A stretch of DNA of 64,000 bases from Stenocarpella maydis (Eukaryota; Ascomycota; Sordariomycetes; Diaporthales; Diaporthaceae), in assembly GCA_002270565.1 (NCBI GenBank), contig NQMI01000079.1, positions 151,043 through 215,042 on the forward strand. The letters are read 5' to 3'. Numbering within the stretch: the stretch's first letter is position 1; every line of letters begins with the position of its first letter. Shown here piece after piece: positions 44,436-53,068 of this stretch. Under the pieces are notes generated by a model, which was not told the origin of the DNA, did no database searches, and was given only the letters and a program-made list of their open reading frames with translations. The translations under genes and the position numbers were made by a program.

Positions 44436-45071
44436 TCATCTCAAATCGAGATCATCGTAGCCAACGTCCCCCGGCTCGTCATCAGGTGGCTCAGGATCTC
44501 CTCCCCCGCCTCCCCAGGGAAAAGGAACGCCCTCGGAGGCAGTGATGACGCCTCCAGTCTCATGGTCACTGTCATCTCCCCCAACGCTGGATGCATCCTG
44601 CCCGATATCATCATCAGAAACGCTCCGCAACCCACTCAGAAGCGCTTCGATGTCAACAGGTACCGGCGCCCAGCCGAACACAGGCGGCTGCCAGCCGTCC
44701 TCGTCGTTGTCCTCGTATTCGTCCTCATCATAGTCTTCTTCCTCCTCATTATTGCCCAGAACCCAGGGTGCACGGCCGGCGGTGGCCTGCAAGTTGTTCT
44801 CGTCAAAGGTCCAGGGGGCCATGCCGTCTGTGTCGCGCACGTCATCGCCAGGCGGCAGTAGAGGAGGGAATGGTTGGCGCATGAACTCGAGGAGAGCGTC
44901 CAGTCCGCGGAACGGGATGGCTACAGGAGGAGGACGGTGAGCCCATTCGAGGTCGACCGCCTCGCCTGCGTCGTCGCCGCCGCCGCCGCCGTCGTCCTCG
45001 TCCTCCTCCTCCTCCATGAACTCGTTCTCGAACTCCATTTCGTCCTCGAAATTTTCTTCACTACCATCTAG
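44436..45071 (-). CDS. in-frame acidic continuation of Ubr1 beyond its TGA stop
   Basis: Immediately after the ubr1 TGA (45074-45072) the same frame continues CTA GAT GGT and so on for 211 codons to TGA at 44438-44436. The residues begin LDGSEENFEDEMEFENEF and are strongly acidic (EEEEDEDD, EEEEDYDEDEYEDNDED). They include ordered-looking patches: LEWAHRPPPVAIPFRGLDALLEFM, PWTFDENNLQATAGRAPWVLG, and WQPPVFGWAPVPVDIEALLSGL. Codon choice is GC3-rich with very few rare codons, as in the Ubr1 body, so this is protein-coding sequence by composition. It could be reached by readthrough of the TGA-CTA-G stop or translated separately from ATG 45038, 34 nt after the stop. No splice pair that would bypass the stop is apparent. 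It has no cysteines, no membrane helix and no peroxisomal C-terminus. Confidence 0.7.
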   Translation of the reverse strand, partial: LDGSEENFEDEMEFENEFMEEEEDEDDGGGGGDDAGEAVDLEWAHRPPPVAIPFRGLDALLEFMRQPFPPLLPPGDDVRDTDGMAPWTFDENNLQATAGRAPWVLGNNEEEEDYDEDEYEDNDEDGWQPPVFGWAPVPVDIEALLSGLRSVSDDDIGQDASSVGGDDSDHETGGVITASEGVPFPWGGGGGDPEPPDDEPGDVGYDDLDLR

Positions 45072-45074
45072 TCA
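45069..45074 (-). promoter_or_regulatory. candidate stop-codon readthrough element TGA-CTA
   Basis: The hexamer TGA CTA (next base G) at the ubr1 stop is the consensus readthrough signal known from fungal peroxisomal GAPDH and PGK isoforms and several animal genes. It is followed by a long in-frame coding-like extension, which is what makes it worth noting. Confidence 0.6.
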
Positions 45075-48000
45075 AATGGTCTCCCAACCGCCATTGTTGA
45101 TGTCGGCCTCGAGCCTGCGCGAGATGTAGGACGGGACCCCGTGGCTGAGCCACATGGTCCGCAGCATTGAGTCGTAGCGCTTCTGAGACAGGAACAGCTG
45201 CCTGCTATGCCGGAGCCCCATGTCTGCCTCGCCGTACTTGTCCATGTATGGAGCGTTGCTCCACGACCCGCTCAGCCGGTGCAGATAAAAGGTTGCGCAC
45301 TTGCGAATGCTGATGAAGAGCCCGACGTTCCCTTGGCACCTGGTTTTGCAGCATGTTAGTTTGATCTAAGCAACTATCAAGTAATCGATGGTACTTACTT
45401 CCGCATGTGTTGCTGGGCCCCGCCGATCCTTCTCCTGCTACCTTGCCTCCTAAGGGTCGTCGTGGTATCCTCCGTTGAGCAACAGATACTCTGGCCACAG
45501 AACACATCCCCACACAAGAGACAGATCATCGGATCAGAGATGTCCTTGCCAGTCCGCGGACACCGCCGCCTTGTGCACTCCTCAATAAGCGTGTCGTAGT
45601 TCATAGGCAAGCCTACAAGCTCAAATATGCCGGGGTGACTGAGCATGCGGTCCTGGTCTGCAACGTCGTGTACAGCCAGGTCCCTAGACTTGATCCGTGC
45701 CCAACAGTGTGCCTTTTCGTGTCGGATCCAACCCCGGACGAGTTGATCACACAGAGAGCCCGGCCATCCGACATGGATGCCCAAAGGCGTGAGAGCTGCG
45801 CACATGCTGTCGAAATCTGGCAGGCGCAGCGCCTCGGTCAGACGGTCGAGTTCGTCCTGCTCCGGCTGGGGTGAAATGTGGCTGTTGAAGTCGACGCCGT
45901 ATTTGACATAAAGAAGTACCACGCATTTTCGAAGGAACACTTGCGCATATTTTTTGGTAAACGCATAGAAGTCGGAAAGACTTTGGAAGCAGGGTTGGTT
46001 GAAGCCATGTTCGAGAGGAGGGTTCGCGTCACCGGGTATCGTATACTCAAGGTCCATGTTGAGGACTGTCTTGCAGAACTCGGCGAAGTTGATCAGACTC
46101 CTGTCCTCCAGCCCCTCGCCCGACATCCATTCGTGGTTCGGGAAAGTGATCCTGGCGGTTCGGTAGACAACCTTGACTATCTCGGCAAGGTAGCACACGC
46201 GCAGTAGATATGACACATCGATGCCGTTCGCTGCGGAGAACCCGAAGACGCTCTCGCACAAAAAGATGAATGTGTCCTGTGTTAGGAGTGGCGGGTGAGC
46301 AGCCAAGTTTTCATCTCCGTCCGGAACAAAGAGCTGGAAATGCTGTCTCTCGCTGTCCTTCTTGAACTCCCTGTCGATCCGGTTCTGGCCGGCGTACTTC
46401 TGGCCTCCTACGGCGATGTACGAAGTCACAGTCTCTGACAAAATGCGCAGGTGGGTGAGAGCTTGCTCGGGTATCTTCTCGAGAAGGAGCGAGCCGTATT
46501 CAGAGTCCTGCCCTCGCTGCTGTATCTCCACAGCCGAGATCGAGAAGCCTACAGTTTTGGCCAGAACATCACTGTCACAGAGATCAGTGGGGTTCCCCGG
46601 CGGCTCGTTCATGCGTTCGCGCTGATCGGGACCATGTCTTCCGACGAGACCATTCCGCCGAAGAGTGTCTCGGAGGCGGCGATAGACGACAACCAGCTCT
46701 GACATCGCGCTGCTGCTCTCGCCCATGCCTGGCGACTGCCCACTTGACTCGGGAGTGTTGCCACCCCAAGGCGTCCCGACAGATGGCGTCTGAGAGCCGG
46801 ATTCCCAGGCGTCCACCACAAGGTGTGACGATTTCTCTGCCAAACTTGGCAGGAGTGTACCCCTCGTGTACTGTGAAAACATCCTCTGGGATGAATGAGG
46901 CTGAGGCTCCAATGCCAGGGCGGCGTTGTGCGTCGACGACAGGTTCTCCTTCAAGAACACCGCAAAAGCTTCGGAAGATACTTGGGTCTCAGTTGACGTC
47001 TGTAGCACGCCGGGATATGATTCCTCCTGGCCCCTCCAGACGATCGGCAAGAAGGCGTTGCCCAACGCCTTGCAAAGTGGACACACAAACTCCAGCCGAT
47101 ACGGGTCCTCGGGGTGATGACGTGCGATCTGCTGCTTGTGCCGCTGCTGAGTTGCCTCAAAGTACACCTCGAAGCAGCTGTAGTGCATTATATGGCCGCA
47201 CCCAATGGACACCGGCCCAGTTCGGACCGCGTGAGGAGGGAAACCCTTGCCGATAATCTGGCGCTCCGTAGTAAAGGTCTCTCCTTGTTGGTTAACCTTC
47301 TGCACGTCCTTGCGGTTCTCATGCGCCACTCCAAAAGGCCGAATGGGCTCAGCCGATCGGTCGAGGTCCTTTGGCGTATTGAATGCTTCTCGAACGAAGT
47401 CAGGGTCTGTCAGATCTGTCTGCCGTAGTATTCCGCTCTCCCTAATGAAGCCAAATGTCCCGTAGAGTCGACGATCGTCTGTGTCTTCTTGGCAGAGGAT
47501 GCATGTCCCGGATGGGTACTTCCAGAAGTTCTTCTCCTCTACTGGCTCAGGTAAATCTTCATCTTCCAAGTCATCGACGTCGCCCCAGTCGATATCGCCC
47601 TGGTTTGCTAGGAAGGTCTTCTGCTGCTGCTGGAACTGTGCCATCACTCGAGCCTGTCGATCCAAGGCTGCCTTCTTCTTGCGTTCCCGCTCCTCATCAG
47701 CATTGGCAATCGCGGCTGGTGAAGCAGTGCTGATCCTATCGACCGGGACACCAAGTCGCACGTATGCCGCCTCAAATTCGGAGGGTCTTTTCTGACGCAT
47801 GCGCTTGAGGGCAAGCGCGATCCGAGGGTGGCAACCCTTGAGCTCCTCCTTCGTCGACATCATGTCCAGGAGGGACACAATAGTCTTGGAAGCCGGGGCG
47901 TCCTGCATAAAGTTGCTTCGTGCGACCTGGGTCAGAGCGGTATGGATGAAAGATGGCTTTGACGGGTCAGATGGCTTGTCCTCGGCAATGGCGATGAGGA

Positions 48001-51000
48001 TAAGGTGCAATACCACTTGCAGGTACGTTTCGACCCTCGTGTATGGTACGGTTGGCGTGAGCTTCTGGCACACAAGCGGGTACAGTAGACTGTAGTAGAT
48101 GATCTGGGCAAACATGCCCGTGCTGGTGAACTCGGCGAGGCCTGCGAAGACGCCGCCGGGGATCGGACGAAGCTTCGGCTCGTACACCACATCCTCGATG
48201 GGCCTTCCGGTTTTCTTGGCTACGCATTTGCGCCAGGCCATCTCCGACTCCTCCCGCTGGTTCTTGTTGTAGTGGGCAATGTACGGGTCGACCTCCTCAA
48301 CAAATTGTGGCTTCAACTCGAATGTGCCAATGTCCGACACGCCCTCTGGTGCTCTGTAGTTGGACATCTCGTCGAGGACCCTGGTGAAGTCTTCTTGCTC
48401 CTGGTATCTCTCGGGCAACTTATTTCCTATCTCAGTGAACGAAAGAGGCTTGAAGCAGAGCACGTGAGTGATGTCGCGGCGCATGGCCAAAATTCGGCTG
48501 TTGGGCTCGTCTTCGGTACGGATCAAAGACGTCCTATCGCTGAGAAGGACAACGAGGAGGTGTATCATGTCCTCGACAATGTCCAGGTGTTGTGCGTCAT
48601 CCTGAGCTGTGGACTTCTGTTCGAAGAAACCCTTGGTCCATTTCTCCATGCCGAAACGATCAACAATTGAGGCGAGCACTCGGCTTGGGTTGCACACCAC
48701 AAGCGCTGTCTGCAACAAGAAGATGTCTCGATGATGGGAAACATCTCTCTGACCAACACCACGATAGGTTCCAGCTTGATGCCTGAGGCTCATGCCATTA
48801 CGAACCCACATTCCAGCCTTCATCTGAGCCAACCAGGCACACACCCTCAGGGGGTAGTCGAACGCCGCCATGAGGAAATCTTCCGGTCCGTAATCACGTC
48901 TCGGCATTGCCCGCTTGCCCATGAGACGGGGGTGGCCTTTGAGCTCTTGGGGTGTGAAGTAGAGAATAGCCCGTAACTGTTCGACAGTCAACGACTTGCC
49001 ACATTCAATCAGCCAGGACAGCGTGTAGTGGAGGGCGTGGTGGAAGCTGATGGGCTGTTCCTCAACCACAAACTTGACGACGTCATATTTGGAGCTGTCA
49101 CCATCAAACTCGAAGTCGCCCAGAGACTTGAAGCGAACTTCGTCCTTGATTTCAGCCTGAGTGAATCGCGCGCGCTCTGCACCAATGGAATTCACAATCA
49201 CGGTCTTTGCTGCTAGACGAATGGCCCGACAGACGCAGTCCGTGTCTTCGACGCCGGTGAAGGACCGGCTAAAAAGGCGACATAGTCGATTGATTTCGCG
49301 TGTGATGAGTGATGCACTAATCCATGTGTCCGTTTCGTACTCAACGTGCTCTCCAACTGCCCTGGTGTTTGGGCATATGCCTTGATGGAGTTTGACGAGG
49401 TCGAGGAACTGCAGCATGTACCGGTCTTCTGTCCTCAAGCGCTCTTGCACATGTGGAGAGAGGAAAAGATACTTGAGGTCGGCAAAGAAGTGGTACATGC
49501 GCCTGTTAGTCACGGACCCAGAGTCAAAAGCCAGGACCGCTGTATCCGAGACGTTCCATGGGTGGCCGACTTGACGAGTTGTTAAAAAGGTGTACAGGAT
49601 AGCCAGAAGGCTGGTCAAGAAATTGCCGCGTTCCACAACCTCTGCTGTGATCGAGGGCGTAGTGAGCATTTGAAGGGACAGGTTGATGATCGAATGGTCC
49701 GGCTCTCGATCCCCAATAAGGTAAAGTTGAGCTAGAGTCGTGTAGAGTCCAGCAAAACGCAAGCCAAGCACACGTTTGAATTCTGGTATCGTAACGACGG
49801 TGGATATGTAGAGAGACCGCATGTCATTGCGCACCTTCTTCCACATCCGGAGGTCAAAAAGAATCATCCAGTCCAGGCGAACCCTCTGAAACAAATCTTC
49901 TGAAGGAGGAACATTCTCCATCTCCACATATGCAGTTGGCGCGAGCATCCAATATCGGCCCGACTTGGGCGGCGTTGCCTGTTCATCTTGCGCCACGCCA
50001 GGCGTCTTTGGTACATCTAGACTGTTTTTCGCATAGATGGACGACGGTATGAGAGGCTCCGCGGTGTCAGAGTCGGACGGGGTCAGATCTCGGTCTCCAA
50101 TATTCCGTCGCGGGCCACTAGGCACTGGAGGAGGAGGCGGCGGTGGATAGCCTGCCATCGTTGCTTCGTCTGCCTCCAGAGCCTCGTCAGCTCTCCAGTC
50201 AGACATGTTGACATCTCCAGCGGCGCCGGGTGCCGAATCGAGCATCATCACGTCTTCCTCATCGTCATCGACGTCCTCGTCCATGTCTCCTTGCGAAGAC
50301 GGCGTATGATTATCGCCATCAGCGTCACTATTATCGTCGTCGTCGTCGTCGTCGTCATCGCTTTCCTCCGCGTTTCGCGCCGTATTTATACCGCGCCTGA
50401 CGGCTTCTCTCGCTTGTTGGAGTCTTGCAGCCTGCAGCAATGCGAACTGGGTGTAGACATTCATGGAGGTGTCTTCTTTCTGGTCCTCCTTGTCCTCGTC
50501 ATCCATTCCCTCCTTGCCGACGATGGCGTGGGTAGCTGGACTTCCCATGCGCCATGGTTTGAGGAGTTCTTCGCAGACTATGACCCGCAGAACAGAGGAA
50601 TCTTGCCCGACGGCGCAACCCGAAATGTCCTTCAGCCACTCAATGATTGTACCGCACATTTGCTCTCGGAACGTATCGCGTGAGGAGCGAATCGTAACAG
50701 TAACGCGGATTTGCTCCAAGGTGTTGGCCCTCCCGAGGAGGGTCTCAACGTCGTCGTCGTAGGTAAGGATACTCCTCCCAATGGTGTCGGTTTCGTACGC
50801 TTTACTAAGAGCCTCTCGCTGAGTCATTGCACAAGCCCTGGCAACCTGGTCTCTAACCTCGGTGATGGTGTGCTTCTCGTCGTTCCAGAGGACGATGGCG
50901 TATTCACCGGGGGACCCCACGTCGCCGCCATGATATGTTGAATTTAGCCTCGACATCTCCTCGTCGTGCTTTATCGACTCGACCGTCTTTGCCTGTCGCA

Positions 51001-51616
51001 ACTGCTCGGGCGAGCAGGATATCACGTCGCAGAGATAGTCGATGACTCGCCCGATTGTCATCCGTATGCTGAAGAGCAGGTCGTCGGGCAGCCTCGGCAC
51101 CTCCTTGTCCTTGCCCTTTGGTTGTTCGTGCTCCCAGGTCGAGTGTATCGTGCAGAACATGGGATTCTTCCATGCCTCCGGGTCACCACAGTCACAGCAA
51201 CCACTATTGCCCGGCGAGATGTTGATCCTAACCATATGTCCCGTGTGGTCCGTGGCATCGAAGCACTTTGCGCAGAGACAGCAGGTGTCGTCGGTGCCGC
51301 ACGTCTTGCAGCTGTATGAAGCCTCCCCTGCCTTGAAGATATGACCGCATGCCATTCCTCGAGCAGCCTCTGTGTATTCTGCTCCCTCAACAGCGCCCTG
51401 GGCGTCCTTGAGCTTGAGAACCTTGCCATCGACGACCGGACCCCCGTTTGGGAAGAAGAGCCTTAGGTAGTCGTCCTTGCCACCAGACATGAACCTGAAG
51501 AGGTTTTCGAGTAGAAGATCCTCTGACTCTTTGTTGTATTGGTATCGTTTCTGAGCAGGCAGCTCCATCAGAAACTGACAGAGCTGCAGCTCCTGCGTTG
51601 ACATTGTAGTGTCCAT
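45072..51616 (-). CDS. ubr1: E3 ubiquitin-protein ligase Ubr1 (N-recognin)
   Basis: N-degron pathway ligase that binds destabilising N-termini and works with the Rad6 E2. A 6.2-kb exon 51616-45399 joins 45339-45072 through one intron (GTAAGT donor, CTAAC branch, CCAG acceptor), giving 2161 residues. The UBR box spans about residues 90-158 (CGHIF, CKTCGTDDTCCLCAKCFD, HTGHMV, GNSGCCDCGD). A ClpS-like type-2 degron domain follows (YAIVLWNDEKHTITEV, EALSKAYETDTIGRS). A nine-residue Asp run lies near 420, encoded around 50333-50360. The RING region comprises CILCQED and CGHIMHYSCFEVYFE with FVCPLCKALGNAFLPI. The C-terminal UAIN part has MICLLCGDVFCGQSIC and joins across the intron to KCQGNVGLFISIRKC. 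It ends WLSHGVPSYISRRLE...NNGGWETI. The stop is TGA in the context ATT-TGA-CTA-GAT. Confidence 0.97.
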
Positions 51617-53068
51617 GTTGGTGAGCTCAGCTCATATCGATGTCGCGCGACGGGGGCGGAGGGTAGCGGTCGGTTGTCAGAGATGGCCCGCTGAACCTAT
51701 TGGGAGTTGCGCGACTTGTTGAAAGATTTCTTGGGCTCTTAAGAGTACGGAAAACCGCGTCAACGGCAAGTGATCAGCTGTGACAAGCCTGGTTAGTAAA
51801 AGTCAGGATGCAGTCAGTCGTGTTGAGCGCGGGGTTGAGGCGAGGGGCGCTGGCTGGTCCAAGAGGAGCTAACACTTCCAAAGGAGAAGGTAGTCAGTCT
51901 ACTTACAAATGCGGGTTCCCGCCCGTCCGAGTGAATAGGACGTTGTGCAGTCCGGGCAGTGTATGGTTTCGATTTGACTAAAACAACATCACTCGCCGAA
52001 GGCTGGATTAGTGATCTCGTCGTAGCAAAGGCTCACCACGGGGGGCTTGCGCGTTGCGGCGGTTGATACGTGCTTAGTGTGTCACTGATAATTGATTGAT
52101 CGTGCTGCACGCAGGGTAGAGCACCCAAGCCAAGGTGCCGTCACAAGCGTCACAGCTTCACTAGCCCGCTAAAGTGCGACCCTGCCGCGCTGCCGGGTCT
52201 GGCGACGTTAATCCTCCCGGGACACGGTGCAGGGGTATGTGCCTATCCACCGTATGCCCACTGCTTTGAACTTGGACAAACCAGTCAGCCTTACCACGAC
52301 GGCGAATAATATATAGTTGCTGCATGGATACGCGGGCATCTGTTAATCAGTCCCATGCGCAACTGAGGCGCTCAATAGGCGTTCCTCCAGGTCAAGTGAA
52401 AAGACGTGGTATGGAACCAATTTCGTGTACTAAGTAGGTATTTGATTTATTAGACGCAACAGCTGATGCAAGCCCATTTCGCAGGCCAACCAAAACTACT
52501 TGCACTGTCGCACCGCCTTCTCACAACTGCTGCGGTCGTAACTCACGGACTACACACAGGCATATATGGGAACAGCAATCTTGAAAACACTTGGTTTGAA
52601 TCTCTCGCAGCGCACAGAGCCTCCTGGCCTGTGTCCTGCTGGCCACCTGCTCACACCGACTCGTTCGTCTCACATACCAGCACTATATTTGGAATGGGGT
52701 ATTTGGGAGAAGCAGAGGCTGTTGTTCAATTGATGGGACGCCGCTCCTCTCATACTTCCTTCCCATCGGCCTGAGCCTCGTCCAACCGCCCGCTTGACGC
52801 CCGTCAACTAAGTCACGGAGGCGGTCATCGGCCATGTCTCAAAACGCAGCACACGTCCTCCCAGCATTCGCCCACACAAGATGAGCACGGTGGTCTCCGG
52901 GTGCACGAGATTCCGGTCAAGTTAGTCTCGTTGTCATTTTCGTCTAAACAGCCCTGATCTATGCTGTCTGTACAAGTACACTCATCGGGATCATCCGGTC
53001 CAAGGCCATAACGTCCCCCGGCTGATCCAATCATGCTGCCATCATCTGCATCCGTTGGCTGTGTTTCC
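51617..53068. promoter_or_regulatory. ubr1 promoter region and qcr9 3' flank
   Basis: About 1.45 kb between two minus-strand genes. The first several hundred bases upstream of 51616 should be the ubr1 promoter and leader. A few short frames (for example 52466-52774) lack coding bias. No RNA gene was recognised. Confidence 0.45.

Follow-up and report, generated by a model that had tools for sequence, protein, structure and literature searches.

The ubr1 gene of the ascomycete Stenocarpella maydis is encoded on the minus strand of a 64,000-nucleotide stretch of contig NQMI01000079.1 (positions 151,043 to 215,042; referred to here as the window, whose own numbering is used throughout), and its first stop codon, a TGA followed by CTA G, is succeeded by 211 open codons in the same frame. 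This stop is probably subject to programmed readthrough, which would give rise to a less abundant form of Ubr1 that ends in a disordered acidic tail. One mRNA would yield Ubr1 in two lengths: most ribosomes would terminate at the conserved first stop to give normal Ubr1, and a minority would decode UGA as sense in the leaky UGA-CUA-G context and translate 211 further codons; these would add a conserved, disordered and strongly acidic 23-kDa tail with three hydrophobic/tryptophan blocks beside the Ubr1 C-terminal domain. The readthrough product would read GGWETI-X-LDGSEENFEDEMEF across the stop. Ribosomal readthrough and its frequency are here inferred from sequence; the explanation accounts for both the TGA-CTA-G motif and the common frame of gene and tail.

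Stop codon context and gene structure

The first stop of ubr1 is the TGA at 45072..45074 (minus strand), in the context ATT TGA CTA GAT, as the preliminary description of the locus had stated. The six nucleotides after ATT TGA belong to CTAGATG (45065..45071, minus strand), in which the readthrough-type 3' context CTA G overlaps an out-of-frame ATG (45067-45065). The UGA of ubr1 is followed by CUA G in full; by base composition CTA would be expected after a stop in 1.3% of cases and CTAG in approximately 0.4%. In Ustilago maydis, UGA followed by CU suffices for readthrough to be efficient; readthrough in human cells rises further with A at +3, and many cases are noted to have G at +4 (PMC4207609). 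UGA CUA G has been termed "the high-TR motif" (PMC12233894), and four human genes are named as carrying UGA-CUAG (PMC5100048).

ubr1 has two exons, the first of them long, separated by a 59-nucleotide intron. Exon 1 spans 45399..51616 (minus strand) within an open frame at 45395-51631, the first Met at 51616 being taken as a provisional start; its Pfam matches are zf-UBR (2.7e-20), ClpS (5.2e-6), UBR1-like_wing (1.1e-33) and PRT6_C (9.9e-106), and by all of the domains looked for the gene is a Ubr1 N-recognin, a UBR-box E3 ligase. The intron (GTAAGT...CAG, 45340..45398, minus strand) joins exon 1 and exon 2 in frame, and the peptide encoded by exon 2 has matches in 35 open reading frames (ORFs) of the protein database. 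The last exon (45075..45339, minus strand) encodes an 89-residue peptide that ends in ...DINNGGWETI, its 3' end reading ...GGC GGT TGG GAG ACC ATT TGA CTA GAT GGT. Normal Ubr1 has 2161 amino acids (aa), assuming that translation starts at the first Met.

The acidic tail and its homologues

The 211-codon acidic frame after the TGA, also claimed at the outset, is present: it is open from 45071, occupies 44439..45071 (minus strand) and closes at a second TGA at 44436..44438 (minus strand). The encoded tail is 22.9 kDa with a calculated pI of 4.05, and contains 64 Asp/Glu and 7 Lys/Arg among its 211 residues; it terminates in DDLDLR, and by eye has no SKL-like end. The tail is predicted to be mostly disordered (mean predicted local distance difference test, pLDDT, of 54.9; predicted template modelling score, pTM, of 0.15), with helices only at residues 11-17, 57-64 and 141-148. 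Two of these three helices fall inside conserved blocks, although the model is of low confidence. The conserved blocks, all on the minus strand, are FRGLDALLEFMRQPFP (44865..44912), which contains a short predicted helix; GWQPPVFGWAPVPVDIEALLSGLR (44625..44696), which has a short predicted helix at its end; and ITASEGVPFPWGG (44508..44546). The tail has no match in Pfam at E up to 1 and none among PDB sequences at E up to 0.1, and a search of its own genome returns a single match, the tail itself.

A search with the 211 residues against 5.8 billion proteins (E up to 1, ORFs up to 369 aa admitted) returned 14 proteins, all with E between 9.7e-72 and 1.8e-36, that are 54-76% identical to the tail over the alignment. 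The 15-row alignment has 40 invariant columns, many of which lie around FRGLDALLEVMRQPF, GWEPPVFGWAPVPVDIDALLSGL and ASEGVPFPWGG. A profile search, its scoring confined to the 7985 candidates with most words in common, returned the same 14 proteins and one distant match, P0050 (174 aa, E 6.3e-4); P0050 retains the stretches GW-PPV, GW-PVPV and FPWGGG amid acidic sequence that differs from that of the tail, and suggests that the tail predates its 14 close homologues. The homologues, 15 in all, are 130-191 aa long. The tail is considered to be real coding sequence because these homologues exist; the length of the frame alone is only moderately unusual in GC-rich DNA. The frame past the stop is thereby under constraint at the level of the protein in 15 homologues, and orthologues lacking any homologous downstream frame, which the preliminary description named as a refutation, are not what was found, the adjacency to Ubr1 being seen in the window only. 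None of the 14 proteins from the tail search carries the ubr1 last exon fused to the tail, nor does any of the 15 when the profile search is included; among the relatives covered, the Ubr1 exon and the tail are, as judged from their protein sequences, separate open frames.

Four of the homologues (P0010, P0011, P0012 and P0014) are without approximately 17 residues that hold the second APW (GIAPWAFDENNLQATAGRAPWVLG; window 44745-44822, tail residues ~84-109). The pattern resembles a minor duplication or deletion inside the tail.

Position of the stop in relatives

The last-exon search used the 89-residue peptide at E of at most 1e-10; it admits ORFs of approximately 49-155 aa, hence fused ORFs could not be returned by it. 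It gave last-exon ORFs from 35 relatives (from 37 candidates), 34 of which end at the homologous residue, the identity of the stop codon being unreadable from proteins. The C-termini of these 34 are GGWETI (24), GGWETL (5), GGWDTL (2), GGWETM (1), GGWDTI (1) and GGWESV (1). The position of the stop is conserved among orthologues, and on this comparison the first stop of ubr1 is real and old; the possibility raised earlier, that resequencing would turn the stop into a sense codon, is made unlikely by the 34 of 35 relatives that end at the same residue.

The 35th relative, P0045, carries the exon in frameshifted form. Its last 27 residues match the +1 frame of the window at 15 of 27 positions and each other frame at 6 of 27, and it ends in "...AAGRPYD" where the +1 frame of the window ends in "...AVGRPFD". 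Back-decoding of P0045, which assumes Thr or Ser and then Ile, Leu or Val before the stop, gives TGA or CGA followed by YTR; the followers allowed in the Ubr1 frame are CTAG, CTAA, CTGA, TTAG, TTAA and TTGA, with TGA CTA G among the solutions. The context in P0045 is therefore compatible with TGA CTA G, and as a single sequence from a 1449-base contig it is suggestive only.

Chance and genomic controls

The probability of 211 open codons is 0.0033 at the stop density of the window. If the density is taken instead from a 150-kb stretch of the contig, the value is 3e-5; this stretch is AT-rich (38% GC) and an imperfect control. The control set comprises 39 stop-to-stop ORFs, unverified as genes, with a minimum length of 250 aa (22 from the window and 17 from the 150-kb stretch); none of the 39 has an in-frame extension of 211 codons (the largest is 112), and none ends in TGA CTA. 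The tail shares the frame of Ubr1, which by chance has a probability of 1 in 3. The codon score of the 18 codons before the second in-frame ATG (Met19) is 0.63 bits per codon in the tail frame, and -0.18 and -0.85 in the others. The preliminary description had also held that only the ubr1 stop and that of SF3b p14 are TGA followed by C; this was not reproduced. Two of the 22 long window ORFs end in TGAC (TGACACGTT, TGACAATAA); these ORFs, of 427 and 260 aa, end in TGA CAC and TGA CAA.

The 150-kb stretch (positions 1-150,000 of the contig) is located upstream of the window and has 17 long ORFs at 38% GC, compared to 22 in the 64 kb of the window at 57.6% GC; an AT-rich, ORF-poor block here adjoins a GC-rich gene block. 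Such a juxtaposition is also seen in fungal genomes affected by repeat-induced point mutation (RIP).

Alternative explanations

Several observations weigh against readthrough. The adjacency of Ubr1 and tail, and TGA-CTA-G itself, are read directly in this genome only; scans of viral and genome contigs with the tail and with the Ubr1 last exon gave no confirmed locus, and the whole-genome collection is without relatives of this genome. The nearest last-exon ORFs (P0015 and P0043) are 98% identical and the nearest tail is 76% identical, and the search gave no tail clearly assignable to those two; this points either to a much higher rate of change in the tail or to a database in which the closest relatives' tails are absent. 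Synonymous codon preference is approximately neutral in the tail (0.008) compared to 0.221 in exon 2. The 107 nucleotides 3' of the stop, considered as a source of stimulatory RNA structure, fold no better than shuffled sequences (z 0.57). PGK and GAPDH are fungal readthrough genes; those of the same genome, tried as positive controls, have TGA GGG and TAA, with no TGA CTA. To these are added the start positions of the tail homologues and the codon score ahead of the first in-frame ATG, both of which are discussed below. The longest contigs of the tail matches and of the last-exon matches, compared by eye, gave no equal pair; this is not counted against adjacency because the entries are clusters whose contig numbers are independent of their members (P0001 has 7 members and 1 contig).

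The strongest competitor to readthrough is a downstream ORF with its own initiation, in which case the tail would be a small protein of its own that starts at Met12 or Met19 and is translated either by reinitiation on a dicistronic mRNA or from a separate transcript with a promoter in the ubr1 3' end; this is considered unlikely, if the most serious of the alternatives. The first in-frame ATG is tail residue 12 (45036..45038, minus strand), a candidate start for a separate ORF in the context GACGAAATGG, which is fair when judged by Kozak rules; the second is tail residue 19 (45015..45017, minus strand) and lies at most 2 alignment columns from the first residue of 11 of the 14 homologues, which start with ATG at tail position 17-20. 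The 11 codons ahead of Met12 are only weakly coding-like, with a weakly positive margin (0.28 versus 0.14 and -0.84 in the other frames). Reinitiation-based dicistronic translation is documented in fungi for the Glarea IGG element (PMC10352335), and mushroom-forming fungi are reported to have polycistronic transcripts (PMC4503453). A separate ORF, however, leaves both the common frame and the TGA-CTA-G context unexplained, CTAG having the approximately 0.4% expectation given above, and the first ATG met past the stop (45067) lies in another frame and precedes both candidate starts. The shared ATG is also not universal, because P0012 begins with Val (a non-ATG start) and P0014 is called from well inside the tail; P0013, the remaining exception, starts further upstream. 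ATG starts would in any case tend to result if the gene caller demands a start codon.

Alternative splicing that skips the TGA is improbable. It would proceed either from the exon-1 donor GTAAGT (45398) to a TGGTAG acceptor just before 45061, or from a donor within the last exon; for the first route, 15 AG acceptors past the TGA were examined, of which 1 would keep the frame when joined to the strong exon-1 donor and is accompanied by a weak TTGAC branch-like site, and for the second there are 30 in-frame GT/AG pairs from exon 2. None of these 30 pairs has a GTRNGT donor and none has a CTRAY branch-like site, by a general consensus not trained on this genome. The splicing routes examined would remove conserved C-terminal residues of Ubr1, the exon-1-donor route exchanging the last 89 residues for the tail, and 34 of 35 relatives retain a stop here. 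The initial claim that no splice pair skips the TGA accordingly holds for consensus sites within the last exon, but has to be qualified by the one weak in-frame exon-skipping route. Least credible is that the TGA is an assembly artefact or the tail a decayed relic; nothing speaks for either except that one long frame is interrupted by a stop, and they are opposed by the 34 of 35 relatives that stop at the homologous residue and by a tail that is intact and conserved in 14 homologues. The initial interpretation as readthrough is thus upheld in part: the tail homologues, the kept stop position and the lack of a consensus intron in the last exon speak for it, and the weak exon-skipping option and the possible separate ORF speak against it.

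Proposed function and significance

The tail carries two conserved segments, LDALL and IEALL, whose sequences, like those of the tryptophan blocks, resemble short binding motifs; as a guess, they would bind either a partner or Ubr1 itself at another site. An effect on substrate or proteasome binding, as suggested at the outset, would be a hypothetical consequence. The tail might act in cis on Ubr1, in which case it would most likely serve as a docking or autoinhibition-modulating arm via its conserved blocks. For a lineage of filamentous fungi, the chances are about even that two Ubr1 isoforms are made by programmed UGA-CUA-G readthrough and that selection maintains the tail, including its conserved DALL and GW/PFPW blocks, as a regulatory arm of the ligase that is tunable by termination efficiency.

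The locus is probably a further case of UGA-CUA-G readthrough, a known mechanism in a new place: the gene is that of an N-recognin, and the extension is long and conserved. If true, a main N-degron ligase of these fungi would exist in two forms set by stop-codon misses, which would link translation termination to protein degradation; the extension would also be a long and conserved fungal readthrough product unlike a peroxisomal signal. The tail in itself constitutes an uncharacterised protein family with no Pfam or PDB sequence match. Among the open-licence papers listed, no report of readthrough of an N-recognin was found by title or start of abstract.

Comparison with known systems

The readthrough enzymes of Ustilago maydis and other fungi resemble ubr1 in TGA CTA, in the G at +4 and in the in-frame extension; the extensions described there serve peroxisomal targeting (peroxisomal targeting signal type 1, PTS1), whereas that of ubr1 is a 211-codon acidic tail on an E3 ligase gene (PMC4207609). 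The mammalian UGA-CUAG genes (Loughran et al. 2014, via PMC5100048) share the stop motif and were predicted by comparative methods; they are other genes, for which there is experimental evidence, whereas the ubr1 case is known from comparison at the protein level. FEM1B likewise concerns readthrough of a ubiquitin-ligase component; however, FEM1B is a CRL2 substrate receptor and its readthrough is described as hominini-specific, whereas ubr1 encodes a fungal N-recognin with a tail that is kept in relatives (PMC11385324). In the Glarea IGG system two ORFs likewise follow closely upon each other on one fungal mRNA; that system yields separate proteins with no fusion, whereas the second ORF at ubr1 is in frame, comes after a readthrough motif and is preceded by an out-of-frame ATG (PMC10352335).
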